Positions 1,942 to 28,742 of a stretch of 42,584 nucleotides of DNA are shown piece by piece (the first letter of the stretch is position 1; every line of letters starts with the position of its first letter). This stretch comes from Hydrogenimonas sp. (lineage in GTDB: Bacteria > Campylobacterota > Campylobacteria > Campylobacterales > Hydrogenimonadaceae), in NCBI GenBank assembly GCA_015484905.1, contig WFUN01000012.1, positions 1-42,584 of the forward strand, in the 5' to 3' direction. Both the position numbers and the translations under genes were made by a program. A model generated the notes under the pieces. It made no database searches. It worked only from the letters and a program-made list of their open reading frames with translations, and had not been told where the DNA came from.

Positions 1942-4197
1942 TCACTCGGTATGAAGCGCATACCATGCCTGTCCAAGAGCTATCGAGCCGTCGTTGGGTG
2001 GAACGTTGAGCGGGTGCAGCAAAGTTCTGTTCATACTTTGTAGCGCACACTTTGCAGCTCTGTAAAGGGTTCGGTTCTGAAACACGCCTCCGGTCATGAC
2101 GATTGGGACTTCACGATACTCTTTCGCAATTTTTACCATGATCCAAACCAGCGTAGCGATAAAACGATCCGCAACCATATCCGGTCTCTCTTCGACTATC
2201 TTCCTGACTACCGGTCTCCAATCTATAACTCCTTTGTCGACGCTCAGTGGCAGCGGTATCGGTTTTTCTCCACCTGCAGCAGCTTCCATCCGAAGTCCAC
2301 TCTCGCCTTCATATGTAACGTACTGGCATATTCCCTCAAGAGATGCCACCGCATCGAAAAGACGCCCCATCGAGGTGGTTAAAGGAGAGTTTATTCCTCT
2401 TTGCCACATTTGATGAAGCAGACTGATTTCTGATGGCTTAAACGCCGCAACGGTGGGTGAATCGAGCTTCGTAATCTCCTCTTTCGTGTAACACTCGAAA
2501 AGAAGAGACAGAGCGCTTCGACGCGGCTCACGGATAGCCTTTTCTCCTCCCAAGAGTCTAAACGGCCTTAAAGAGGCGACTCTTTCAAAACCTTTCACAT
2601 CACACAAAAGTACCTCTCCTCCCCATATCGTCCCATCTTCTGCATATCCTGTACCGTCCCATACGAAGGAGAGGACGCTATCTGTTATACCGTATTCGGC
2701 CATCACGGCGAGGGTATGTGCAAAATGGTGCTGTACGGTTTGAATGTGAAGTGTGTCGCGTATAGCGGATAGATTTTTTGTCCATTTTGTCGTTTCGTAG
2801 CGCGGATGTTTGTCGCATACGACGATATCGGGTTCAAAATCGTAAAAACGTCTGAAAGTCTCTACAGTTCTTTGAAAATAATCCATCGACCCAATAGAAC
2901 CCAGATCCCCGATATGGGGAGAAAGAACGATCCTCTCTCCATGTACGAGAGCGATGCTGTTTTTCTGATTCGCTCCAACCGCCAAAATCTTTTTTCCGGA
3001 AGCCTTTTCAAGCGGCATGGTCAAAGGAGCTATACCTCGTGCCACTCTGATCCACTGTATACGGGAGTCGACGATCTGTACCACCGAATCGTCGCAGGCG
3101 TTCACGATCTCTCTGTCATGATCAAGTATCGCATCTACTACATCACCGAGCTTTCGCTGCAGCTCTTTGGCACCTCTGATTATAGGCTCACCACCCAGAT
3201 TCGCACTTGTTGCTACGAGTGGATTCTCGAGATGATCTAAAAGAAGAAGGTGCAGCGGCGTAGAGGGAAGCATTATACCTATACGGTCTATGGCGGGCGC
3301 CACTGCATCCGAAAGAGCTTGCAAGGGGGTTTTGTCAGACTTTTTCATAATAACTACAGGCCTGATTACGGATGCAAGCAGCTCTTTTTCGGTCGAATCC
3401 GCATCTGCAAGCTCTACAGCCGTCTGCAGATCCTTTACCATAATTGCAAAGGGTTTGAAGGGGCGCTGTTTTCTCTCTCTGAGTCTCTTTACAGCCGCAT
3501 CGTTTGATGCGTCACACATAAGATGGAATCCTCCCATCCCTTTGACTGCCACTATTTTACCCTCCTTGAACAGTCTGGCCGTCTCTTTTACAATGTCTCT
3601 TTTTTTCATGTCAAACCTGGTATCGCCTACAAGAAGAGATAGAGTCGGGCCGCAATCATGACAGCTTATCGGCTGAGCGTGATATCTGCGGTTCATTGGA
3701 TCCTCATACTCTTCGCGGCATCTTGAACACATTTCGAAACGTTCCATAGAAGTGTTTGGTCTGTCATAAGGAACGGTAACGGTAATGGTGTAACGCGGTC
3801 CGCAGTCGGTGCAGTTTATAAAGGGGTAGAGATATCTGCGGTTTTTTGGATCTCTCATCTCCTCGATACAACTGTCACAGATCGTCATATCCGGACCTAC
3901 GGCTGTCCTTTTGGAACTTCCGGCGTCTGAAGCCATAATGTGAAAGCCTCTCTCGCCCAAACTTTCTACCACACACTTTTTCAAAGAATCTATTCGAGCA
4001 AGAGGAGGAAGTTCATTGTAAAACCTCTTGAAAAAGAGTTCTATCGACTCGTTCTCTCCCTCCAGCTCCAGCGTTACACCGTTTCCATCATTGAGCACAT
4101 AACCGCCAAGCCCAGCCTCCTGTGCAAGACGATACACAAAGGGTCTGAAGCCGACTCCCTGTACGATGCCGGTTATCTGATATCTGTATCTTCTCAT
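1942..4197 (-). CDS. hypF: Carbamoyltransferase HypF, [NiFe]-hydrogenase maturation
   Basis: HypF converts carbamoyl phosphate and ATP to a carbamoyl adenylate and hands the carbamoyl group to the C-terminal Cys of HypE, the source of the cyanide ligands of the NiFe site. All domains are present in 751 residues, the usual length. An acylphosphatase domain carries GVGFRP at 14-19. Two zinc fingers have Cys 107/110-129/132 and 157/160-179/182. A YrdC-like adenylation domain spans roughly 200-385 (KGMGGFHLMCDA). A Kae1-like carbamoyl transfer domain follows, with HHFAH at 490-494, DGTGYAEDG, GGVFQNRTL and a C-terminal NDGSIALGQ. It is the last gene of the hyd operon, starting three bases after the hydE stop, so it is probably translationally coupled. 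hypA, hypB, hypC, hypD and hypE are not in this window. Confidence 0.96.
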   Translation of the reverse strand: MRRYRYQITGIVQGVGFRPFVYRLAQEAGLGGYVLNDGNGVTLELEGENESIELFFKRFYNELPPLARIDSLKKCVVESLGERGFHIMASDAGSSKRTAVGPDMTICDSCIEEMRDPKNRRYLYPFINCTDCGPRYTITVTVPYDRPNTSMERFEMCSRCREEYEDPMNRRYHAQPISCHDCGPTLSLLVGDTRFDMKKRDIVKETARLFKEGKIVAVKGMGGFHLMCDASNDAAVKRLRERKQRPFKPFAIMVKDLQTAVELADADSTEKELLASVIRPVVIMKKSDKTPLQALSDAVAPAIDRIGIMLPSTPLHLLLLDHLENPLVATSANLGGEPIIRGAKELQRKLGDVVDAILDHDREIVNACDDSVVQIVDSRIQWIRVARGIAPLTMPLEKASGKKILAVGANQKNSIALVHGERIVLSPHIGDLGSIGSMDYFQRTVETFRRFYDFEPDIVVCDKHPRYETTKWTKNLSAIRDTLHIQTVQHHFAHTLAVMAEYGITDSVLSFVWDGTGYAEDGTIWGGEVLLCDVKGFERVASLRPFRLLGGEKAIREPRRSALSLLFECYTKEEITKLDSPTVAAFKPSEISLLHQMWQRGINSPLTTSMGRLFDAVASLEGICQYVTYEGESGLRMEAAAGGEKPIPLPLSVDKGVIDWRPVVRKIVEERPDMVADRFIATLVWIMVKIAKEYREVPIVMTGGVFQNRTLYRAAKCALQSMNRTLLHPLNVPPNDGSIALGQAWYALHTE

Positions 4198-4200
4198 ACG

Positions 4201-6129
4201 TTAAATATAAAGAGCCCCTATCAAAGCACTCTTTCTGTCCATCGGATAAAAACGGTTCATGTAGAAGGAGTCTTTTGCCATTTTGCTCTCCACCCTACTG
4301 TATAAAGAGGGAGTTGCAAATACTTTGCCACACAATGCTGTTTTCTTTGCTTTCGCCCGCTGCTTCAGTTTCGAAGAGACATCTACAATATAGTCGCCAA
4401 ACGATTCAAAAATGGAAAACGCAACGAGCGGAGCTTCGGCATCCGCCATCCTGTAGCTCATGAGGCTCGCCAAAAATGCATATGGGTCGAATCTGCTGCC
4501 GTTTAGAGTCATGTCCACCTGAAGGCCCCCTCTTGCAGAAAACTTAAGTGCCTCTTTTTGCAGTGCATCTATTCCGATATCTTTGAGATCCAGAATAATG
4601 GAGGCTGCGTCGAAAACACTCTTTATACGATAGCCGCCAAACAACCTTTCAGCAGTGTTTGGAAACCTTTTTGAGAAATTCATCGTTAATCTTTCCGACC
4701 CATCTCTCAACTCCAAAATCCTCTTTTCAAGATTTTGCGATTCGAACTTCACGGAAGGAACGGCACAGATACACCTTTTCCCATCGTAATAGAGAAATAT
4801 CGGCTCCTCTTCGAAATATACACCCACACTCTTTGTACCCAGTGCACCGTTTTCTGCCAATACGGAAAGGATGGAAGCTTCAGCCTGCGAAAAAAAATGT
4901 CTGTTGGAGTGGCTTGGTATTTCCATTTCATCATCAACGACAAAAAGCTCTTTCCCGGCAGCACTGCCGAACTTTTCACTTCTGTCTATCTTTATACCGT
5001 TTTGTATAGGGATCGCTGCCATTTCATGGGCATAAACTATCCTTTCGCTACCGATATTCAAAGAGAATGGAAAAACTGCTCTCTCTCCCTCCGCTACAAA
5101 TCTTACACCCTTGTTTACGAAGAGCTTCAAATCTTTTTGGGGCTCTATTTTAAGATCATAATCTAAAATCCAATCGCTCTCTTCTCTCTCTTTGCACTCG
5201 ATATATGCGATATGGCTGCGGCCCAATGCAAGCAGCTCTTTTGAAAGAAGAATCGTAAATCCGTCATCTGGATGCTTTACCAGCGCGGATCTGCCGTAGA
5301 GGCCAGCCAGAGAGTCGTCTGCGACAGTGAGATTCAAAAGAGGCTTCTCTATACTCAGCAGAAGATTTTTTTCATCATCTATTACACTACATATATGAGC
5401 AATTTTCGTCGCATCCACAATAAGCATTTTCATCGACCCACGAGGCTGAAACCGGATGGGATCGAAAAAGAGTCGCCATCCGTTTAGGCTCTTTACGAGA
5501 ACTCTCCTGCCAGAGTCTATCTCTTTGGCGGCCGTTTCGAACAAGCGCTTGTAACTCTCTTTTTCATCTGCATACAGTTTCGATTTTTTCGAACCCATTT
5601 CGATGGGGACTCCACACTCTGTGCAAGATATATCCGGCATACTCTTTCTAAACGCACTCTTTTCAAACTCAAACAGGCATGAATCACACATCTTAAGAGG
5701 GCTCAAACCCGTATTCTCTCTAATATAGGGGTATCTCTCAAGAAGAGGGTAGTGGTAACCGCAGCAGTTGCATGAAGTGAACGGATAGTAGTAACGTCTT
5801 GAAGAGGGATCAAATATCTCTCTCAAACATCTTGGGCACAAAGAGACGCTAAAAGGTGACAGCTCGTCGGATCCGTTAGCCAAAGATACCCGAGTCTCCT
5901 CCTCGATTTTGCAGGAAAAGTCTTTCATAAATATTGATGCGGGAAGTGTCGAAGCGAGTCTATGTATGAATAGCTCAAAAGAGGCGTCATTTTCATCAGC
6001 TATCACACTTATACTGTTGTCCGACTGCGAAACGAAAATATCGACTCTCTCCTCTTTTGCCAGAGCCTCTATAAATCTCTTTATATATTTTTGCTTCGAG
6101 ACAAATCCTATCTCCATTACCAACGCCAT
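4201..6129 (-). CDS. hydE: HydE, HypF-like hydrogenase accessory protein lacking catalytic motifs
   Basis: The gene occupies the hydE position (after the protease) of the Wolinella/Helicobacter hyd operon; HydE is known to be needed for hydrogenase activity in Helicobacter pylori. By eye the 642 residues follow HypF end to end. An acylphosphatase-like start has SKQKYIKR where HypF has GVGFRP. Two intact zinc fingers follow (Cys 98/101-120/123 and 148/151-169/172). Next comes a YrdC-like segment (RRVLVKSLNGWRLFFDP near 208-224), then a Kae1-like part in which HHFAH has become HFFSQ near 411-415. The C-terminal NDGSIALGQAWY has become MDRKSALIGALY. The catalytic signatures are therefore gone while the fold and zinc sites remain. 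AAAGGAGTTGA precedes the ATG, giving a firm start. I infer a scaffold or client-binding role in cofactor assembly. Membership of the HydE family is inferred from position and resemblance, without a search. Confidence 0.78.
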   Translation of the reverse strand: MALVMEIGFVSKQKYIKRFIEALAKEERVDIFVSQSDNSISVIADENDASFELFIHRLASTLPASIFMKDFSCKIEEETRVSLANGSDELSPFSVSLCPRCLREIFDPSSRRYYYPFTSCNCCGYHYPLLERYPYIRENTGLSPLKMCDSCLFEFEKSAFRKSMPDISCTECGVPIEMGSKKSKLYADEKESYKRLFETAAKEIDSGRRVLVKSLNGWRLFFDPIRFQPRGSMKMLIVDATKIAHICSVIDDEKNLLLSIEKPLLNLTVADDSLAGLYGRSALVKHPDDGFTILLSKELLALGRSHIAYIECKEREESDWILDYDLKIEPQKDLKLFVNKGVRFVAEGERAVFPFSLNIGSERIVYAHEMAAIPIQNGIKIDRSEKFGSAAGKELFVVDDEMEIPSHSNRHFFSQAEASILSVLAENGALGTKSVGVYFEEEPIFLYYDGKRCICAVPSVKFESQNLEKRILELRDGSERLTMNFSKRFPNTAERLFGGYRIKSVFDAASIILDLKDIGIDALQKEALKFSARGGLQVDMTLNGSRFDPYAFLASLMSYRMADAEAPLVAFSIFESFGDYIVDVSSKLKQRAKAKKTALCGKVFATPSLYSRVESKMAKDSFYMNRFYPMDRKSALIGALYI

Positions 6130-13762: not shown

Positions 13763-13930
13763 ATCGGACCCTTTTATACTTTTAAGCGTGATTGTACCCG
13801 GTTTTGATAAAATATTACATAATTCATATTGACATTACTTTGCAAAAAGCGAAATTCGCATAAAGTTGGCCAATTGCGAAACAGCTGTATGTTGGACAAG
13901 AGCGAAACAATAAAAAACCGGAGTTTTACA

Positions 13931-16027
13931 ATGACAAAAACAGAACACATTCCGACGCTTCTTGCCGGCGATCCGGAGTCGAAACGCGAGGAGATTCGAC
14001 GCTATTTTCATGATTCATGCAGAAGATACGAGTCGCTTTTTTCACTTTTGAAAAGTGACGAATCCTTCTATAATCGCCCTGAGCCGCTTCGGCACCCGCA
14101 TATATTTTATTATGGGCATACAGCTGCTTTCTATATCAATAAATTGATTCTTGCGAAACTGATAGAAAAAAGGGTCGATCCAAAGCTTGAGTCCATATTC
14201 GCGGTCGGAGTTGATGAAATGAGTTGGGACGATCTTGATGGAACCGGCTATCGCTGGCCTTCGGTTGAAAAAGTGCGCTCATATAGAGCGGAAGTCAGAA
14301 AGCTCGTAGACGGCCTTATCGATTCTATGAGTCTTGAACTTCCGATTACCTGGGAGTCTCCATGGTGGGTAATTCTCATGGGAATAGAGCATGAAAGAAT
14401 ACATATAGAGACATCGTCGGTATTGATAAGGCAGACAGATCTGTCGCTTCTCCGTCCACCAAAATCCTGGAAAATCCACCCATCTGGTTCCGATGCCCCA
14501 CGTAACTCTTTAATCGAAGTTCCCGGCGGAAGAGTCACGATAGGGAAGAAAAGAGACGACGACTATTATGGATGGGATAACGAATATGGATGCCATGAAG
14601 CCGATATTCCGGGTTTCAGAGCTTCAAAATATATTGTCAGTAACGCAGAGTTTCTGGATTTTGTAAAAAGTGGCGGTTATGAAAACGATTCTTGGTGGGA
14701 GGAGGAGGGGCTTGCATGGCGTAATTACAAAGAAGCGAAACATCCATGCTTCTGGATTCCGGATAATGGAAATTACAAATACAGGGCTCTTGCAGAAGTT
14801 ATACAGATGCCGATGGATTGGCCTGTTGAGGTAAACTATCATGAAGCCAAAGCTTTTTGCAACTGGCTTGGCAACAAGAGCGGCACCAGGCTGCGTCTAC
14901 CTACGGAAGACGAATGGTATCGTCTATATGACTATTGCGATATACCTGAAATTGTGCAACAAAAGGGAAAAATAGGAGCAAATATCGGATTGCGATTTTT
15001 TACCTCCTCTCCTGTAGATATGTTTAAACATGGCGACTTTTACGATATTGTAGGCAATGTATGGCAATGGACCGAAACTCCTATATATCCTTTTGAAGGT
15101 TTCGAAGTACATCCGATTTATGACGACTTTACAACACCTACATACGACGGCCGTCACAATCTGATAAAAGGGGGCTCTTTTGCAAGTACCGGAAACGAAA
15201 CACTAAAAAGCTCGCGTTACGCTTTCAGGCGTCACTTTTTTCAGCATGCCGGATTCCGCTATGTCGAAAGCTGCTATGAAGAGAGGGTCGGCTCTGCCTC
15301 ATACGAATCCGATGAGCAGATAGGCCGATACTGCGAATTCGGATGGGGAGAGACTTACTTCAACATACCGAACTATTCGCAAAACTGTGCCAGAACTGCT
15401 CTTGAGTTCTGTAAAAATAGAAGACGACTCAAAGCTCTTGATATAGGGTGCGCCACTGGGCGAAGCACATTGGAGCTCGCAACGCAATTTGAATCGGTTA
15501 CAGGAGTCGATTTCTCCGCCCGTTTCATAGGAGCTGCGGAAAAGATTCGCAGCGAAGGAGAGATAAGCTATATGATACCTACAGAAGGGGATCTGACAGA
15601 ACAGAAAAAAATTGATCTGCCGGATTATCTGAAAAAGGTGGTAGAAAGGGTCGATTTCCAGCAAGGGGACGCCTGCAACCTCAAGCCTTCTTTCAAAGAG
15701 TACGACCTGGTCACTGCATTCAATCTGATAGACCGACTTTACGATCCGGAAAAATTCCTGCGTGATATAACAGAGCGCATAAACAGAGGTGGAATATTTG
15801 TTTTAAGCTCTCCTTATACATGGCAAGAAGAGTATACACCCAAAAAAAAGTGGCTTGGAGGATTTCGACGAAACAATGGGTCTGTTACGACTATGGAGAG
15901 ATTGAAAAAGGTGCTTGAACCCGAATTCAGGCTGATGGAAATATGTGATATGGAGTTTGTAATACGTGAAACGAGCCGTAAATTTCAACACTCTTTGGCA
16001 CAGCTTTCAATCTGGGAGAGGTTATGA
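13931..16027 (+). CDS. ovoA: 5-histidylcysteine sulfoxide synthase / mercaptohistidine N-methyltransferase OvoA
   Basis: OvoA joins cysteine to C5 of histidine with O2 at a non-haem iron, and its C-terminal methyltransferase later makes ovothiol A. The 698 residues show the three expected parts. A DinB-like domain carries the iron ligands His63 (YGHTAA), His154 and His158 (EHERIHIE). An FGE-sulfatase/EgtB-like domain follows at about 175-450 (GNVWQWTET, then GGSFAST and HAGFRYV). A SAM methyltransferase spans about 490-698 (LDIGCATGRS). ATG 13931 is chosen because GGAG lies eight bases before it; upstream in-frame starts at 13829 and 13889 have no ribosome site. The stop overlaps the ovoB start as ATGA. 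A selenium- or ergothioneine-type homologue is less likely, because EgtB lacks the fused methyltransferase. Confidence 0.92.
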   Translation: MTKTEHIPTLLAGDPESKREEIRRYFHDSCRRYESLFSLLKSDESFYNRPEPLRHPHIFYYGHTAAFYINKLILAKLIEKRVDPKLESIFAVGVDEMSWDDLDGTGYRWPSVEKVRSYRAEVRKLVDGLIDSMSLELPITWESPWWVILMGIEHERIHIETSSVLIRQTDLSLLRPPKSWKIHPSGSDAPRNSLIEVPGGRVTIGKKRDDDYYGWDNEYGCHEADIPGFRASKYIVSNAEFLDFVKSGGYENDSWWEEEGLAWRNYKEAKHPCFWIPDNGNYKYRALAEVIQMPMDWPVEVNYHEAKAFCNWLGNKSGTRLRLPTEDEWYRLYDYCDIPEIVQQKGKIGANIGLRFFTSSPVDMFKHGDFYDIVGNVWQWTETPIYPFEGFEVHPIYDDFTTPTYDGRHNLIKGGSFASTGNETLKSSRYAFRRHFFQHAGFRYVESCYEERVGSASYESDEQIGRYCEFGWGETYFNIPNYSQNCARTALEFCKNRRRLKALDIGCATGRSTLELATQFESVTGVDFSARFIGAAEKIRSEGEISYMIPTEGDLTEQKKIDLPDYLKKVVERVDFQQGDACNLKPSFKEYDLVTAFNLIDRLYDPEKFLRDITERINRGGIFVLSSPYTWQEEYTPKKKWLGGFRRNNGSVTTMERLKKVLEPEFRLMEICDMEFVIRETSRKFQHSLAQLSIWERL

Positions 16028-17190
16028 GACCATTTGAAACACAGATAGATAGAAGTGGCACATACACCCTGCAGTGGGATGGAAGAGAAAAAAGGTTCGA
16101 CTCGTCCGAGATACTGCCGTTATGGGTCGCAGATATGGATCTTCCGTCTCCGGAATGTATAACGAACGCTTTAAAGAGGCGTGCCGGGCATCCGATCTAT
16201 GGCTACACCATCTACCCGGAGAGATTTTTTGAAGCAATTTGCGGCTGGATGAAAAGCATGCATGGGTGGAATATAGAAAAAAACAGTATCGTACCAGTAC
16301 CCGGGGTCGTTCCTGCACTCAATTTTCTGGTAAACGCCTTCAGCAGACCCCAGGATGGGATAATCATACAACCTCCGGTCTACCACCCATTTTTCCGCCT
16401 GGGCAAAAACCATAACAGAAGGTTGCTCGAAAACAGACTTCTACTTGAAAACGGCCGCTACAAAATTGATTTTGACGATTTCTACACAAAAGCCAAGGAG
16501 GCGAAACTCTTTATACTCTGCTCTCCCCACAATCCTGTAGGACGGGTATGGGAGAGAGAGGAACTCGAGAAAATGGTAGAGATATGTCTAAGTGAAAATC
16601 TGCTTATAATAAGTGACGAGATTCATGCAGATATTGTATTTGCTCCAAACAGACATATCCCAACGGCTCTCATCTCCCGGGAGGCGGCGGATATTACGAT
16701 CACGCTCAACGCTCCATCCAAATCATTCAACATAGCCGGATTAAACACGGCATACGCAATAGTCGAAAATGAAACGAAAAAAAGGCGTTTTGAAACAGAG
16801 TTGGAGCGCTATGATCTTACAATGGGTAATCTTTTCGGTATAGAGGCGCTGATTTGGGCCTATGAAGAGGGCGAAGACTGGATAAAAAAACTTCTCAAAC
16901 ACCTGAAAGGAAATATAGAGTATGTAAAATCTTTTCTTGATGAGGCTTCATCTTCTGTCCACCCTTTGAATCCGGAAGCCACATATCTGATGTGGCTCGA
17001 CTGCCGTGGCCTTGGAATGGATGACAGAGAGCTTACTGATTTTTTTGTAAAAAAGGCGAAACTCGGATTGAACAGCGGTATAAGTTTCGGTACCGGAGGC
17101 AGCGGTTTCATGCGTTTGAATATCGGATGCAGCAGAAAAAAACTTGAAAGGGCCATGCTGCAGTTAAAAAACGCTTTGGACGAGCTTTGA
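16024..17190 (+). CDS. ovoB: PLP-dependent C-S lyase of MalY/PatB type, probable OvoB
   Basis: A fold-type I aminotransferase-like protein of 388 residues, close to MalY/PatB cystathionine beta-lyases. The PLP Lys is Lys233 in APSKSFNIAGL. SDEIHAD at 197-203 holds the Asp that pairs with the pyridine nitrogen, and CSPHNPVG at 166-173 carries the substrate-side Asn. The start overlaps the ovoA stop by four bases, so the two are co-translated. In the known ovothiol route, the sulfoxide made by OvoA is split by a PLP lyase of exactly this family (OvoB) to 5-mercaptohistidine, which the OvoA methyltransferase then methylates. The function is therefore inferred from family plus tight coupling. General cystathionine beta-lyase activity remains possible. 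It converges on a membrane-protein gene with ten bases between. Confidence 0.82.
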   Translation: MRPFETQIDRSGTYTLQWDGREKRFDSSEILPLWVADMDLPSPECITNALKRRAGHPIYGYTIYPERFFEAICGWMKSMHGWNIEKNSIVPVPGVVPALNFLVNAFSRPQDGIIIQPPVYHPFFRLGKNHNRRLLENRLLLENGRYKIDFDDFYTKAKEAKLFILCSPHNPVGRVWEREELEKMVEICLSENLLIISDEIHADIVFAPNRHIPTALISREAADITITLNAPSKSFNIAGLNTAYAIVENETKKRRFETELERYDLTMGNLFGIEALIWAYEEGEDWIKKLLKHLKGNIEYVKSFLDEASSSVHPLNPEATYLMWLDCRGLGMDDRELTDFFVKKAKLGLNSGISFGTGGSGFMRLNIGCSRKKLERAMLQLKNALDEL

Positions 17191-20945: not shown

Positions 20946-22214
20946 TCAAAAAATAAGACGTTCCGAAACGAGCAGTCCTGCAAGCATAATTCCCAGTGTA
21001 ATCATAAAAAACTGCATCAGCTTCCACCCCAGCCTGGCTCCACCGATCCAATAGACAATAATCAGTTTTACAATCGAGTTGGTCACTGAGGCGATAACTA
21101 TACCGTTCATCGATGCCTCGTTTGCCAATTTTGAATCCTTTGCCATCTGGCTCAGTGAAAGCGTAATAGCATCTACATCGGTTATACCGGAGACCAGCGA
21201 TACGATATATACTCCTATATTACCGTAACGTGTCTGAACAAATGCGATGGCTCCATATATGATTCCGAAAATAAGGCCAAATTTTATCGCCTCACTAAGC
21301 TGCAACGGATTTTTCGCTATTGAAGGGTTTTCGAGACTGATTTCAACTGCTTTGGAGTGGATGAAAAGATAATAGCTGAAAACCAGCCCTGCCAAAGATG
21401 CGCCAATATAGGCAGGGGCAAGTCTGACAGCGAGCTCCGGATGAATGACAAACGCTTCAAAAAGTACTCTTAAGTACATAAAAGTGGCTGCAACGGCAAT
21501 GCCGCCGGCATAATTGTTTAGCAGCTCGTTTCGCTTTTGAAACATTTTAGACAAAGAGACGGAGACGGCAGTAGAAGAGATCAGTCCACCTGCAGCACCT
21601 GTCAGAAATACTCCATGTTTTTGACCAAGGACTTTGATGGCCACATACCCTACGAAAGAGATCCCTGATATAATTACGGCCATTAGCCATGTCTTATACG
21701 GATTGAAGAGTTTGTAAGGGCCTATCATTTGGTCCGGCAAAACCGGCAAAACTACAAAACTCATGGCCAGAAGCAAAATAACGGCACTTGTATCGGTTGT
21801 GGAGATATGAGACTCTATCCTACGAAGCCTGGGCTTTATTTCAAGAAGAATTATCATGATGACACCGATAAAAACGGCGTAGTTTTCCAGGTCGAACCAT
21901 ACCATAAGTCCAAGAACGAATGTGATTATAGCGGCGATCTGTGTCGTCATGCCTCTTTTTTGAGAGGTTTTGACTTTCAGAAAGTATGACAAACCCACCA
22001 AAAAACCGATGACTGCCATTGCGATAAAAATAAAACCTGAGATATACCTTTCCAGCCATCCGGCGAGATATCCGGCAAGAGCTATCAACGCAAAGGTACG
22101 GGAACCGGCAAAGGTCTGCTCTTTTTTGTAAATATAGGTCATAGAGCGTTGCATGCCAATCGCAAAACCGAGCAAAATAGCTATCAAAAGAGATTTTACG
22201 ATGTCATACTCCAC
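20946..22214 (-). CDS. MgtC/SapB plus DUF4010 membrane protein
   Basis: 422 residues, about 12 hydrophobic helices. The N-terminal third (LLGFAIGMQRSMTYI, then AGSRTFALIALAGYLAG) is the MgtC/SapB domain. The remainder carries DUF4010 signatures: STTDTSAVILLLAMSFVVLPVLPD, GLISSTAVSVSLS and VSGITDVDAITLSL. Proteins of this build are annotated as possible Mg2+ or small-molecule carriers, but transport is unproven. The start is GTG at 22214, seven bases after GGAG in the end of the upstream gene. The two genes overlap by 11 bases, so it is probably co-translated with the antiporter/P-ATPase fusion. Confidence 0.82.
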   Translation of the reverse strand: MEYDIVKSLLIAILLGFAIGMQRSMTYIYKKEQTFAGSRTFALIALAGYLAGWLERYISGFIFIAMAVIGFLVGLSYFLKVKTSQKRGMTTQIAAIITFVLGLMVWFDLENYAVFIGVIMIILLEIKPRLRRIESHISTTDTSAVILLLAMSFVVLPVLPDQMIGPYKLFNPYKTWLMAVIISGISFVGYVAIKVLGQKHGVFLTGAAGGLISSTAVSVSLSKMFQKRNELLNNYAGGIAVAATFMYLRVLFEAFVIHPELAVRLAPAYIGASLAGLVFSYYLFIHSKAVEISLENPSIAKNPLQLSEAIKFGLIFGIIYGAIAFVQTRYGNIGVYIVSLVSGITDVDAITLSLSQMAKDSKLANEASMNGIVIASVTNSIVKLIIVYWIGGARLGWKLMQFFMITLGIMLAGLLVSERLIF

Positions 22215-25200
22215 TCTTTTCTCCTTTGTTCTTTCGTTTCACAATCCACCACTCGAAAGATTTATACAATTCTACCGCAATAAAGATCGGCACCGCCACT
22301 TCAAAGATCAACAGCCAATCTTCCCATCGAAGTGGTACTGTATGCAGAGCTTCTTGCAAAAAAGGAACGTATATGGCGGCAACCTGCGAGGCGACCGTAA
22401 GGATCCATGCCCCCAGTACCCACGGATTTGAAAAGAAGCCGATCACCGGCATCGGCGCACGCAGACTGCGATAGTTGAAGACATTCATCTTCTCCAGGAT
22501 TATGATGCCGGTAAACGCTACAGTCTGAGCCAAAGCGACCGCTTCGTGTTCGGGCAAGCCGGAAGAGAGATAGCGGTGAAAAAGCCAGAGCGATCCAAAG
22601 CCTATGTATGAGCCTAGAAGCAGTATCATTACTATACCTCTAAGCTGCAAGAAAGGGGCGTTTATGGAGTGTGGAGGGCGCTCCATAATTCCCTTTTCAG
22701 CCGGTTCCAGCCCAAGTGCTACAGCAGTCATACCGTCTGTGACCAAGTTCATCCACAAAATCTGTACCGGTAGCAGAATCAACGGACCTCCCATAAGGAT
22801 ATTGACAAATATAGCTATCACCTCGCCCATGTTGGATGAGAGAAGATATGTGACGAACTTCTTTATGTTGTCATACTGTCGGCGCCCCTCTTTGACCGCT
22901 TTTACAATAGAGGCGAAGTTGTCGTCCAGCAGTATCATATCGGCTGCACCTTTGGCGACATCCGTACCGCGTTTTCCCATAGCTATACCGATATCGGCCC
23001 GTTTAAGAGCAGGGGCGTCGTTGACACCATCCCCGGTCATAGCCGTCACGAGTCCCTCCGACTGCAGTAAAGATACGATGCGCAGTTTGTCCTGCGGTGT
23101 CGTACGTGCAAAAATCAATCCCTCTTTGAGTGCGGTTTTGAGCGCATCGTCATCCATACGGGCCAGTTCGTCTCCGGTGATCGCCCGAGTAGCTTTCAGC
23201 CCGATCTCCTTTGCGATCGCCAACGCGGTAAGCGGAGCGTCCCCCGTGATCATCACAACCTCTATTCCGGCTCTGCGTGCCGTCTCTATCGCTTCCGGAA
23301 CTTCAGGCCTTGGCGGATCTATTATCCCCACAACTCCCAGCAGTATCAGATCTTTTTCGACATCTTCCGGATCGAGTTTCGTATCGGGCGGAAGAACACG
23401 CTTTGCCATAGCAAGAGTGCGCAATCCCCTTTTGGCCAAATTTACGTAAGCCTTTTCGAACGCCTCTTTCATCCTATCGTCGAGCGGTTTTTTTCCGGTA
23501 CCGTCGTAGTAGTATTTCGCCCGCTCAAGCAAGATCTCCGGTGCACCCTTGACATAAGCAACCCTCTTTCCACTCTCCTCTACGACAACCGTCATTCTCT
23601 TTCGTTTGGAGTTGAACGAAAACTCGCTCACCACTTTAGGCTCACCGGGCACCAACCACGCTTTGTAGGCGGCCACTATCAAAGAGGCCTCCGTAGGCTC
23701 ACCTGCAATCTTCCACCCATCTTTCTCTTTGGTGAGTGAAGCGTGGTTGCACAGATATCCGGTCTTTAGAAGCAGAAGCAGATCTCTTCTGCTTTTGTAG
23801 TCGAGTCTCTCTCCATCGACCTCGAAATGGCCAGCCGGGTCGTAACCGCTTCCAGTGACATCAACGCCTCCGCCAAAAAGCCAGATCTTTTTGACCGTCA
23901 TCTGATTCTTTGTCAGCGTACCGGTCTTGTCGGTACATATGACATTGGCACTACCCAGGTTTTCGGCAGCCTGCAGCCTGCGCAAAAGAGCGTTGCGGCG
24001 AACCATCGCCTTGACTCCAAGTGCCAGCGTTATCGTAACGACTGCCGGCAGCCCTTCCGGCACTACCGCCACGGCCAGAGATACTCCGGTAAGGAACATT
24101 TCCATCAGATCTTTGCCAAAAATATATCCAACGACGACAACAAGTGCCGATATGGCCACCGAAAGAACGCCCAGTTTCTTGCCCAAAACCGCCAACTTTC
24201 TCTGCAGCGGCGTTGCTGTCTGTTTCACTTCGCTTGTCAGTTTGGCTATCTTTCCGAACTCTGTAGACATACCGGTCGCTACTACCACCCCTTTGGCATA
24301 ACCGTTGGTAACGTTCGTACCCATCCAGACCATATCACTCCGCTCGGCCAAAGGTGCAGCCTCCGGCACCGCTTTCACCCTCTTGACGACAGAGACGGAC
24401 TCGCCGGTCAGCGCCGACTCGTCCACTTTCAGGTTGACCGCCTCGAGCAACCTGAGATCTGCAGGAACACGATCGCCAATCTCCAGCAAAACTATGTCGC
24501 CCGGCACCAGCTGCGAGGCGTCGATGCGGCTCTCTTTTCCGTCACGAACGACCCGGCACGAGGGAGATAGCATCTTTTGCAGCGCCTCTATGGCCCTTTC
24601 GGCTTTGAACTCCTGCACAAAACCGAGTATACCGTTTAGAATGACTATCGCCATAATCGTTACGGCATCTCCTATCTCTCCTATCGCGAACGAAATGCCG
24701 GCGGCTATGAGCAAAATCAGTATCAGCACATCTGTAAACTGTCTCAGAAAAACCAGGTACCACTTCTCTTTGTGTACTGCCTCTATTCGGTTGTAGCCGT
24801 ACTCTCCAAGACGCTTGCGCACCTCCTGTGCAAACAATCCCTTTTTCGGATCGCTTCGCAGAAGCTTCAAAACCTCATCCGCCCTCCTGGCGTACCACTT
24901 TGTCACCGCTTCGCCGACCGCTATAGCCTCCGGTGCGGCTTTGGGAACGGGAGTGCTCTTCATAAGCATAAGCTCGGACCGCCATCTTGCCACAAGAACC
25001 GAGAAGGTCAGCGGTACGATTATCGTCGAGACTGAAGAGGCAGCGACAAGCGCGGTAAACAGCTTAATATCTATAATATGGGCATCAAGAAGAAGTTTGG
25101 CAACGATGATCTCCGTCGTCAGTCTCGCATTGAGACCGATACCTATGGTCCATGCCTCTTTCACCGTCAGTTTTCTCATCGGAACCAAAAAAAATATTCC

Positions 25201-26172
25201 GACAAGCTTGCCGACAAAAGCCGCCAGAAAGAGCAATATAGCCAGCTCCGGAGCTTTCACCATCCCCTCCAGATCTACACTCATACCGACCCAGAGAAAA
25301 AAGATTATTCCGAAAAAGCCGTAGCTTACCGCACGTACCGCACGGGTGGCATGCTCACCGGCTACGCCGGCGGCATCGAATACCGGGCGCATCAACATAC
25401 CCGCCACGATAGCACCTACAACCAACCCCAGATCCGAATATTCGGCAAATCCTCCAAACAGGAAAAGGACCAGTATCATCAAAATTATCAGGTTTGAAAC
25501 CTTTATTTCTGTCCAGCGAGAGAGCGGGACCAGAATGAAACGGCGGGAAAACCATGCGATTGACGTAAATATGGCGATATTTAAAGCGATATCGGCAATC
25601 TCTTTCGTATCGTTTGTTACGAGACCGCCTTCGGTGCCTATCCAGACCGATACGAAAGCGACAAGAAAAACCTCTATGACATCGTCCATAACGCCGGCAC
25701 CGATGATATAACTGCCCACTCTGGTTCTTATGAGATTGAACTCATCGAGTATCGGAACTATGACAGCCTCGGCCGTGGGCATTCTGGTTACCCCTATGAC
25801 AAACGCCAGCATCCAACCGTAATCGAGATAGAGCATAACCACCACACCCATCAGGAAAGGTATTACCGTATTGAGCACTGTCGCCCATGCGATATCGCCG
25901 CTTTGGCGCCTCATCTCTTTCATATCGATTTGAAGGCCTATAAAAAAGAGCAAAAAAAGCACACCAAGATCGGCCAGTACCGTAAATATATCGCCATTTA
26001 GACCGGTAGTCAGAATATTCCCAACCGGGGTATAGTGGATGCCCATTGCGACAAAAAGCGCCGCAATGATGCCGGGTATTTTAAGACGCTCGAAAAATCC
26101 GGCCAGAAAATAGGTAAGGCCGAAAAGAAGAGAAAGCAGAAGAAGAAATTCACCCAAAAGTTGATCGTTCAT
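22204..26172 (-). CDS. CPA2 cation:proton antiporter fused to a Ca2+-type P-ATPase
   Basis: A single uninterrupted frame of 1322 residues. Residues 1-400 form a CPA2 (KefB/NapA-like) antiporter with 12 or so helices, a TRMPTAEAVIVP broken-helix segment near 129-140 and the ion-binding Asp163-Asp164 pair (VMDD). A short linker (401-420) leads to a complete P2-type ATPase. It has the cation-ATPase N-domain (421-490), the actuator TGES motif, phosphorylated Asp748 in CTDKTGT and GDGVNDAP. It also has the SERCA-type ion residues Glu706 in VPEGLP, Asn and Glu in SSNMGEV, and NLVTD. Residues for both SERCA calcium sites appear present. Normally the two activities are separate proteins. I infer coordinated Ca2+ (or Na+/H+) export across the inner membrane. 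It is followed by the overlapping MgtC/DUF4010 gene. Confidence 0.9.
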   Translation of the reverse strand: MNDQLLGEFLLLLSLLFGLTYFLAGFFERLKIPGIIAALFVAMGIHYTPVGNILTTGLNGDIFTVLADLGVLFLLFFIGLQIDMKEMRRQSGDIAWATVLNTVIPFLMGVVVMLYLDYGWMLAFVIGVTRMPTAEAVIVPILDEFNLIRTRVGSYIIGAGVMDDVIEVFLVAFVSVWIGTEGGLVTNDTKEIADIALNIAIFTSIAWFSRRFILVPLSRWTEIKVSNLIILMILVLFLFGGFAEYSDLGLVVGAIVAGMLMRPVFDAAGVAGEHATRAVRAVSYGFFGIIFFLWVGMSVDLEGMVKAPELAILLFLAAFVGKLVGIFFLVPMRKLTVKEAWTIGIGLNARLTTEIIVAKLLLDAHIIDIKLFTALVAASSVSTIIVPLTFSVLVARWRSELMLMKSTPVPKAAPEAIAVGEAVTKWYARRADEVLKLLRSDPKKGLFAQEVRKRLGEYGYNRIEAVHKEKWYLVFLRQFTDVLILILLIAAGISFAIGEIGDAVTIMAIVILNGILGFVQEFKAERAIEALQKMLSPSCRVVRDGKESRIDASQLVPGDIVLLEIGDRVPADLRLLEAVNLKVDESALTGESVSVVKRVKAVPEAAPLAERSDMVWMGTNVTNGYAKGVVVATGMSTEFGKIAKLTSEVKQTATPLQRKLAVLGKKLGVLSVAISALVVVVGYIFGKDLMEMFLTGVSLAVAVVPEGLPAVVTITLALGVKAMVRRNALLRRLQAAENLGSANVICTDKTGTLTKNQMTVKKIWLFGGGVDVTGSGYDPAGHFEVDGERLDYKSRRDLLLLLKTGYLCNHASLTKEKDGWKIAGEPTEASLIVAAYKAWLVPGEPKVVSEFSFNSKRKRMTVVVEESGKRVAYVKGAPEILLERAKYYYDGTGKKPLDDRMKEAFEKAYVNLAKRGLRTLAMAKRVLPPDTKLDPEDVEKDLILLGVVGIIDPPRPEVPEAIETARRAGIEVVMITGDAPLTALAIAKEIGLKATRAITGDELARMDDDALKTALKEGLIFARTTPQDKLRIVSLLQSEGLVTAMTGDGVNDAPALKRADIGIAMGKRGTDVAKGAADMILLDDNFASIVKAVKEGRRQYDNIKKFVTYLLSSNMGEVIAIFVNILMGGPLILLPVQILWMNLVTDGMTAVALGLEPAEKGIMERPPHSINAPFLQLRGIVMILLLGSYIGFGSLWLFHRYLSSGLPEHEAVALAQTVAFTGIIILEKMNVFNYRSLRAPMPVIGFFSNPWVLGAWILTVASQVAAIYVPFLQEALHTVPLRWEDWLLIFEVAVPIFIAVELYKSFEWWIVKRKNKGEKSGV

Positions 26173-26351
26173 GAAAATTCCATAAAAATTTCTTTTTTTA
26201 ATTGTACTCCCATGTCACTTCATAATATTTTAAGATTCAAGCAGCTTACACAGAGACCTAACACTCGGTAAAAAACAGAACTTGCACGAATATTACACAT
26301 GATTCGACTACAATAGAGCGAAAAAGAGATATGCCTGAAGGAGGGTTGTTT

Positions 26352-28742
26352 ATGTATAAAGATGTTGTCTGCGGAATGGACGTCCCCAAAACCACAAAAT
26401 ACCAGGCGGAATATAAGGGGAAGATGTACTATTTTTGCAGTGAAGGCTGCCTCGAAAAATTTACAAAATCTCCTGAACTCTATCTTGATAAGGAAAAAGA
26501 AAAGAGTTTAACCGTTGGCAGAAACAAAAGACCGGAGCCATCGATGGACGCTACTCAATCGCACGGTTGCTGCTCTGGTAAGCATGATGTTTCTCATACG
26601 GTCGGCACAGCGAAACCCAAAGGCGACAATACTGTATATACATGCCCAATGCACCCCGAAATTGAGCAGACAGGCCCCGGGAACTGCTCCAAGTGCGGTA
26701 TGGCTCTCGAGCCTCGTACGGTAGAGACAGAAGAGGATACAAGCGAACTCGACGATATGACACGCCGCTTCTGGATCAGTACGATTCTCGCCGTACCTGT
26801 ATTTTTCAGTGCAATGGCCGCCGAATTTCGACCTGAACTGATAAACGGCCTTATCGAGCCCAAAATACGTCAATGGATCGAACTTCTTCTCTCTACTCCA
26901 GTCGTATGGTGGGGAGGCTGGATATTTTTCAAACGGGGCTGGCAATCGATAATTACGAGAAACCTCAATATGTTCACCCTAATTTCAATCGGCGTAGGAA
27001 TAGCATGGATTTACAGCTTTATAGCCGTTGTTGCGCCAGGAATCTTTCCTCCGGATGTTTTCAATGAATATGGAGTGGTACCGGTCTATTTCGAGGCTGC
27101 TGCAGTCATAACCGCACTCGTTTTACTGGGCCAGGTCCTCGAACTTCGTGCACGCCGACAGACCAACAGCGCCATAAGACTGCTGCTTGGCCTCGCGCCC
27201 AAAAAAGCGAGAATAGTTCACGAAGATGGAACGGAAGAAGATATTCCTTTGGAACATGTAAAACCGGGAGATATCCTTCGTATTCGACCTGGAGAAAAGA
27301 TACCGGTAGATGGCGAGGTGATAGAGGGCGAAAGCAATGTAGATGAATCGATGGTTACGGGCGAACCGATTCCTGTAGCGAAATCGGCGGGGGACAAAGT
27401 GATCGGAGCTACGGTCAACGGCAACGGTACTCTTCTTATGCGAGCGGAAAAGGTGGGAGCGGATACACTACTTGCGCAGATAGTCAATATGGTCGCAGAA
27501 GCGCAGCGTTCACGCGCACCGATCCAGAAGCTCGCCGACAAAGTTGCCGGTTATTTCGTACCGGCGGTTGTGTTGGTGGCTATCATCACATTCATTGTAT
27601 GGAGTCAGTGGGGACCGGAACCCGCTATCGCATATGCAGTGATCAATGCGGTAGCGGTTCTGATCATAGCATGTCCATGCGCTCTGGGACTGGCGACTCC
27701 AGTATCCATTATGGTAGGTACAGGCAGAGGGGCCATGATGGGTGTACTGATAAAAAATGCCGAAGCGCTGGAAGTTATGGAAAAAGTGGACACTTTAGTC
27801 GTTGACAAGACCGGTACACTAACGGAAGGAAAACCCAAATTGGTATCTGTCATACCATTCGATGGATTCAATGAACAAGATATTCTTCTATTGGCGGCAA
27901 GTCTTGAACATGTTAGTGAACATCCTCTTGCAGAGGCAATTGTAAACGGAGCTCAGGAAAAGGGGATCGTCCCGACCAGAGTAGAAGAGTTCCAATCAAT
28001 AACCGGCAAAGGTGTTTTGGGAACGGTCAATGGCAAAATGGTAGCCCTTGGAAATCTGAAACTGATGAAGAGTCTTGGTGTTGAGATGAAGAATCTGCCA
28101 GAAATGGCCGACAAGCTCAGAAAAAAGGGGCAGACTGTAATGTTTATTGCCATAGATAAAAAAGCAGCAGGTCTTATAGGGGTCGCCGACCCAATCAAAA
28201 AGAGTACACCTGAGGCTATACGAAATCTGCATGATGAAAACATCAGAGTCGTCATGCTTACCGGCGATAGCCGCAAGACAGCGGAAGCGGTAGCGAAAGC
28301 GCTTGGCATCGACCGGGTTTATGCCGAAGTCCTTCCGGAACAAAAAGCCGAAATAGTAAAAGAACTTCAGAAAAAAGGACATGTAGTTGCCATGGCGGGT
28401 GACGGCATAAACGACGCACCTGCTCTAGCCCAGGCAGATGTTGGAATTGCGATGGGAACCGGTACCGATGTCGCAATGGAGAGTGCAGGAGTGACGCTGG
28501 TGAAAGGAGATATGCGCGCAATTGTACGGGCATTTCGTCTAAGTCGTGCCACAATGAGAAATATAAAAGAGAATCTGTTTTTCGCATTTGTATACAATAG
28601 TGCCGGAATACCCATCGCTGCGGGGATACTATATCCTTTCTTCGGTATTCTGCTCTCACCCATGATTGCTGCTGCTGCCATGAGCTTCAGCTCGGTATCT
28701 GTAATAGCGAATGCGCTTAGACTCAAAAAAGTACAGATTTGA
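26352..28742 (+). CDS. copA: Copper-exporting P1B-type ATPase with YHS and CxMHP metal-binding N-terminus
   Basis: Uses ATP to export Cu(I) or Ag(I) from the cytoplasm. The start at ATG 26352 has GAAGGAGGG at ideal spacing; an in-frame ATG at 26331 has none. The N-terminus lacks the usual HMA (GMTCxxC) domain. It begins with a YHS domain ([12 protein letters not shown] to YYFCSEGC, residues 7-33), then a Cys/His patch HGCCSGKH, then a heavy-metal-binding segment [17 protein letters not shown] with Cys112 and Cys115. The core is complete: eight helices, TGEP in the actuator domain, CPC at 441-443, Asp485 in DKTGT, a SEHPLAEAI nucleotide motif and GDGINDAP. This build matches SilP/CopA-like ATPases. 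It diverges from the antiporter/ATPase gene across a 179-base spacer. The following 256 bases to cfa hold only small hairpins and no supported gene. Confidence 0.94.

Follow-up and report, generated by a model that had tools for sequence, protein, structure and literature searches.

A NapA-type antiporter and a P2A-type ATPase joined in one chain in Hydrogenimonas and encoded by adjacent genes in other phyla

Na+/H+ exchangers and ATP-driven calcium-type pumps are ordinarily two separate membrane proteins. In the known case of KdpFABC, a P-type ATPase is combined with a transporter-like subunit, and KefC and other CPA2 relatives carry regulatory domains at their C-terminal position. Bacterial relatives of SERCA and PMCA commonly neighbour Na+-H+ exchangers (PMC7016017), so that an exchanger gene stands beside a P-type ATPase gene as in several of the loci described below; the available text of that survey names neither a fusion nor the antiporter subfamily, the Usp gene or the DUF4010 partner that we report here. 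Our literature searches, with most subscription papers outside their scope, found no published description of the fusion, and such chains may well be present in databases as automatically made entries.

The gene described here lies in a stretch of 42,584 nucleotides (contig WFUN01000012.1; hereafter the window) from a genome of 158 contigs, 1.84 Mb and 99.8% completeness, which the ATPase tree places closest, among named organisms, to Hydrogenimonas (Campylobacterota). It comprises 1322 codons and a stop, with its ATG at the complement of 26170-26172 and its stop codon at 22204-22206, and it encodes a NapA-type CPA2 antiporter (residues 1-402), a linker of ~24 residues and a P2A ATPase (residues 427-1322).

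22204..26172, minus strand: fused CPA2 antiporter and P2A ATPase gene (ORF, translation, Pfam, orthologous fusions)
24967..26172, minus strand: antiporter half, residues 1-402, NhaA fold with broken helices at 129-134 and 347-351 (Pfam, AlphaFold, Foldseek)
24895..24966, minus strand: linker, residues 403-426, coil (alignment; low-confidence prediction)
22207..24894, minus strand: P2A ATPase half, residues 427-1322 (Pfam, NCBIfam, matches to SPCA1, LMCA1 and SERCA)

Pfam assigns Na_H_Exchanger to residues 19-395 (4.6e-44), followed by Cation_ATPase_N (426-494), E1-E2_ATPase (533-726), Hydrolase (744-1060), Cation_ATPase (807-887) and Cation_ATPase_C (1130-1306), in agreement with the two families, CPA2 antiporter and P-type ATPase, named in the initial annotation. 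Its reading of the locus as one 1322-residue protein is borne out by the ORF, by the translation and by the same frame in other genomes, and Asp163-Asp164 and Asp748 fall where it had placed them. It had the extent of the gene right and gave no strand; the gene is on the minus strand. Plus-strand coding over 22204-26172 is ruled out by many stops in that reading.

AlphaFold models the antiporter half with a pLDDT of 87 and a pTM of 0.83, and the model contains the crossed broken helices listed above. Foldseek ranks NapA (4bwz) first, with a TM of 0.79 and 24% identity in that alignment, and by sequence, too, NapA is the closest of the solved relatives (E 1e-14), with KefC and NHA2 next.

25681..25686, minus strand: Asp163-Asp164, equivalent to NapA Asp156-Asp157 (alignment to NapA)
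25768..25770, minus strand: Glu135 at the broken helix TM4, Val in NapA (NapA alignment, relatives, model)
25207..25209, minus strand: Lys322, equivalent to NapA Lys305 (alignment to NapA)

All four residues are invariant in 56 of 56 antiporter relatives. A full-length Na_H_Exchanger domain, the NhaA fold and the Asp-Asp pair on a core helix together with the Lys identify a CPA2 antiporter of the NapA type. The half thus resembles NapA of Thermus thermophilus (CPA2; PDB 4bwz, 5bz2) in its fold, its Asp-Asp pair and Lys and its 13-helix plan, and differs from it in its low identity, in the invariant Glu135 and in carrying, as NapA does not, a whole P-type ATPase at its C-terminus. KefC likewise extends a CPA2 membrane domain with a cytoplasmic C-terminal domain, but there the addition is an RCK regulatory domain, whereas here Pfam finds an ion pump in place of RCK/TrkA_N. 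With its DD/Lys set, the antiporter half would be expected to exchange Na+ and H+ as NapA does. The DD motif is no proof of electrogenic exchange, however, because human NHA2 has it and is electroneutral (PMC9408914).

The ATPase half has A, P and N domains, a 10-helix C-terminal region and the DKTGTLT motif, together with the ligands of SERCA sites I and II (E309, N768, E771, N796, T799, D800 and E908), the M8 Glu lying on a weaker stretch of the alignment. From M5 to M6 it aligns with SERCA1a without gaps.

24055..24057, minus strand: Glu706 (PEGLP, M4), equivalent to SERCA Glu309 (sequence; invariant in 37 paired ATPases)
23929..23931, minus strand: Asp748, phosphorylated Asp of DKTGTLT (sequence; invariant in 37 paired ATPases)
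22822..22833, minus strand: Asn1114 and Glu1117 (M5), equivalent to SERCA Asn768 and Glu771 (ungapped SERCA1a alignment)
22735..22749, minus strand: Asn1142, Thr1145 and Asp1146 (M6), equivalent to SERCA Asn796, Thr799 and Asp800 (SERCA1a alignment)
22492..22494, minus strand: Glu1227 (M8), equivalent to SERCA Glu908 (weaker alignment stretch; invariant in 37 paired ATPases)

The seven ligands and Asp748 are invariant in 37 of 37 ATPases paired with such an antiporter. SPCA1 and LMCA1 are the best solved relatives, and the resemblance to SERCA, SPCA1/PMR1 and Listeria LMCA1 runs over the whole length of the pump, which differs from these P2A Ca2+-ATPases in being preceded by a 13-helix antiporter; it also has a Glu in M5 and another in M8, both absent from LMCA1 and SPCA1 in the alignments. 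Because it scores just below the equivalog cut-offs of both the PMR1-type model (TIGR01522, 769.1 bits against 798.3) and the SERCA-type model (TIGR01116, 662.6 against 703.4), we file it as P2A and as neither of these types. The earlier description "SERCA-like" holds for the seven side-chain ligands, although the family scores fall just short. A P2 paralogue in the same genome (42% identity) has Ala where the fused pump has the M6 residue Asp1146, which suggests that the Ca2+-type pump of the two is the fused one. In this genus a second P2 ATPase (L002 at G000:C65, L019 and L020) has Ala for the M6 Asp, with the motif NMVTAVT, and so probably transports another ion. With KdpFABC the fused chain shares the physical tie between a P-type ATPase and another transporter-type protein, but Kdp consists of separate chains from other families (a P1A pump and an SKT channel), and where Kdp has P1-type KdpB and the channel-like KdpA, this chain has a P2A ATPase and Na_H_Exchanger.

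The linker (~403-426) varies among relatives in both sequence and length, and residues 404-429 have a pLDDT below 50 within a whole-chain model that is itself poor (pLDDT 55, pTM 0.39, residues 1-1190 of 1322). No interface between the halves is seen in that model, which at this pLDDT and with 1190 of 1322 residues is too poor to judge. The antiporter half has 13 predicted helices, and the positive residues in its loops, together with NapA homology, would place its C-terminus in the cytoplasm. The join appears topologically sound, because the N-terminus of the ATPase is cytoplasmic as well.

The one-chain form is found mostly in deep-sea-vent bacteria, and 10 of 60 relatives carry the whole chain in one open frame at 59-83% identity. 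We sampled 399 genomes of the order, accepting antiporters at E up to 1e-60 and the cognate ATPase at E up to 1e-240, and found the former in 36 and the latter in 30. All but one of the ATPase-bearing genomes (29 of 30) also have the antiporter, the exception (G204) beginning inside the ATPase at a contig end. A search for the joint architecture in other genomes, as the initial annotation had proposed, thus finds it as a single open frame in 26 of the 29 Campylobacterota genomes with both parts, across several families. These 26 include closed, single-contig chromosomes read directly (L137-L141), and a true split into two adjacent genes occurs in another closed chromosome (G134, L136). Where Campylobacterota have the two as separate genes, the start of the ATPase gene overlaps the stop of the antiporter gene or is only a few codons away. 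The locus of G319 looks frameshifted, and G065 (L135, G065:C1) has the gene in several frames, a decaying copy.

Five genomes (G055, G077, G138, G158, G251) have the antiporter without the ATPase. These lone antiporters are still constrained (Ka/Ks 0.05-0.13) and retain an intact ion site, and in G077, a single-contig chromosome, a DUF4010 gene directly follows. The same arrangement, antiporter then MgtC/DUF4010 and no ATPase, is seen at L044, L083, L084 (G055), L095 and L134 (G077), an apparent loss of the ATPase. Among the genomes that can be judged, the ATPase does not occur without the antiporter, whereas the reverse does, a one-sided dependence that supports cooperation between the two. 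In the window the corresponding gene is:

20946..22214, minus strand: MgtC and DUF4010 membrane protein, 422 aa (ORF, Pfam)

It begins inside the 3' end of the fused gene, with an 11-nt overlap, and in nearly all Campylobacterota loci its counterparts come next after the fused gene or after an antiporter on its own; in that phylum it probably belongs to the module as a third component. A literature search found no paper on DUF4010 with MgtC. On the other side the fused gene adjoins a divergent copper-type heavy-metal P1B ATPase with YHS and HMBD domains (26331-28742, plus strand). Farther off, a protein with DinB_2, FGE-sulfatase and methyltransferase domains is followed by an aminotransferase (13829-17190, plus strand), a pair that resembles OvoA and OvoB of ovothiol biosynthesis, and a second HypF-like protein of 642 aa, with one HypF zinc finger and a weak HypF_C_2 (4201-6129, minus strand), stands beside a complete HypF (1942-4197). 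No RNA elements or tRNAs were found in the window.

Two antiporter motifs, the only query in a scan of 84,980 species genomes, returned 65 loci, of which 53 had enough sequence; the antiporter was fused to the cognate ATPase or lay just upstream of it in 46 of these and not in 7. Fusions in the scan were confined to Campylobacterota. Separate adjacent genes were found in Pseudomonadota, Thermodesulfobacteriota, Myxococcota, Nitrospirota, Methylomirabilota, Aquificota, Actinomycetota, Hydrogenedentota and one archaeon of the Archaeoglobales, and since many of these loci are metagenome bins, individual taxon labels may be in error. A gene of ~150 residues often stands between the two at these loci, matching Usp (PF00582) in three examples; such single-domain Usp genes occur at L049:7199-7663, L063:7214-7660, L090:7214-7678 and similar places. 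In the Archaeoglobales locus the ATPase is in two overlapping frames (L094:2900-4627 and 4596-5774), divided near ATPase residue 502, which may be a frameshift or a real split. At four Pseudomonadota and Aquificota loci the cluster consists of an H+ pump, the antiporter and the Ca2+-type pump, the first being a P3A proton-efflux ATPase (TIGR01647, 870-958 bits) on the same strand as the antiporter:

L049:3298-5910, L054:2995-5844, L060:2036-4702 and L080:1475-4150: P3A ATPases upstream of the antiporter

The ATPase tree groups the paired ATPases in one clade, separate from their paralogues. Distances between loci in one part correlate with those in the other over 37 loci (Mantel r 0.886, against at most 0.306 in 2000 shuffles), a correlation to which shared species history also contributes. 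A plasmid search yielded no record with both parts over 80% of the chain, and the ATPase relatives found there stand alone. A single fused clade, that is, one fusion and no reversal, was rejected on the ATPase tree (AU p 2.9e-38), which requires at least three changes; fusion or fission therefore happened more than once. The best explanation of these patterns would be that the genes for antiporter and ATPase were passed on side by side over a long time and were then joined in Campylobacterota.

Since the catalytic residues are invariant and Ka/Ks is ~0.05 in both halves, both probably transport. We consider there to be about an even chance that the chain is a tethered Na+/H+ antiporter and Ca2+-export pump, one module of cation homeostasis in which each half is active and retains a transport cycle of its own. 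The pump half would move Ca2+ out at the expense of ATP and bring H+ in, and the antiporter half would exchange Na+ for H+ beside it. A flexible linker of ~24 residues would lead from the cytoplasmic end of the antiporter into the cytoplasmic N-terminus of the pump, setting the halves at 1:1 in the same membrane patch and allowing a local balance of Ca2+ and Na+ export with the resulting movements of H+ and charge. Because both halves are conserved and the lone antiporters remain constrained, the tether most likely makes a co-located 1:1 exporter of Ca2+ and Na+ rather than a shared ion path. Antiporters with the DD/Lys set of NapA normally take H+ in and Na+ out, which is the same H+ direction as that of a P2A pump. 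The H+ return that the initial annotation had suggested as a partner to Ca2+ export would thus need reverse antiport, because both halves normally bring H+ in. The proton pumps upstream in other phyla would fit a module whose H+ is supplied separately.

A somewhat doubtful alternative is that the fusion is one of convenience, in which overlapping genes of the same stress response were fused through small indels with no gain beyond co-expression. The near-contiguous genes of the split Campylobacterota loci, the mixture of fused and split forms in the ATPase tree and the freely varying linker are as this would predict, and the interchange of fused and split forms, which shows the covalent tie to be inessential, counts against the tethered module. 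Yet the fused state is retained in 26 of 29 genomes from several families, and within the order no ATPase of this kind is seen on its own, although elsewhere relatives among the P2A ATPases, at ~50% identity, do stand alone. Co-inheritance and the one-sided dependence of the ATPase support functional cooperation of the halves, and that dependence leaves room for direct mechanical coupling, which is possible. Its strong form, a Kdp-like machine in which the antiporter half is a pump subunit and ATP hydrolysis and antiport are mechanically coupled, we consider unlikely: KdpFABC offers a precedent, both parts are co-inherited over phyla and only the antiporter is found alone, but each half has a complete ion site, that of the antiporter stays intact under purifying selection where the ATPase has been lost, a Usp gene separates the two genes in many phyla, and no interface is predicted, albeit from a poor whole-chain model. 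A marginally smaller likelihood attaches to a single coupled machine with a common interface, in which Ca2+ export driven by ATP and Na+/H+ antiport would each gate the other, the split pairs being the same complex built from two subunits.

It is very improbable that the antiporter half has lost transport and serves as a sensor or regulator of the pump, as the regulatory domains at the same C-terminal position in CPA2 relatives such as KefC might suggest, given that all its catalytic residues are invariant and that it survives alone with a DUF4010 gene where the ATPase is gone. The least credible reading, two genes joined by an assembly or sequencing artefact, found no support, frameshifts in some MAG copies (L040/G319, L059/G277) notwithstanding, and it is refuted by a joint frame open in many independent genomes, closed chromosomes among them, which with purifying selection on both halves (synonymous sites near saturation) excludes chance as well as artefact.

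Most work on primary pumps and on secondary exchangers treats them as independent proteins, linked only through bulk gradients. The tethered antiporter and pump would be a natural, repeatedly formed one-chain version of such a pair, and thus a system in which direct coupling of a P-type ATPase and an antiporter can be tested against coupling by proximity; it also suggests that in many other bacteria the split pair, which is conserved across many phyla, forms a partner complex.
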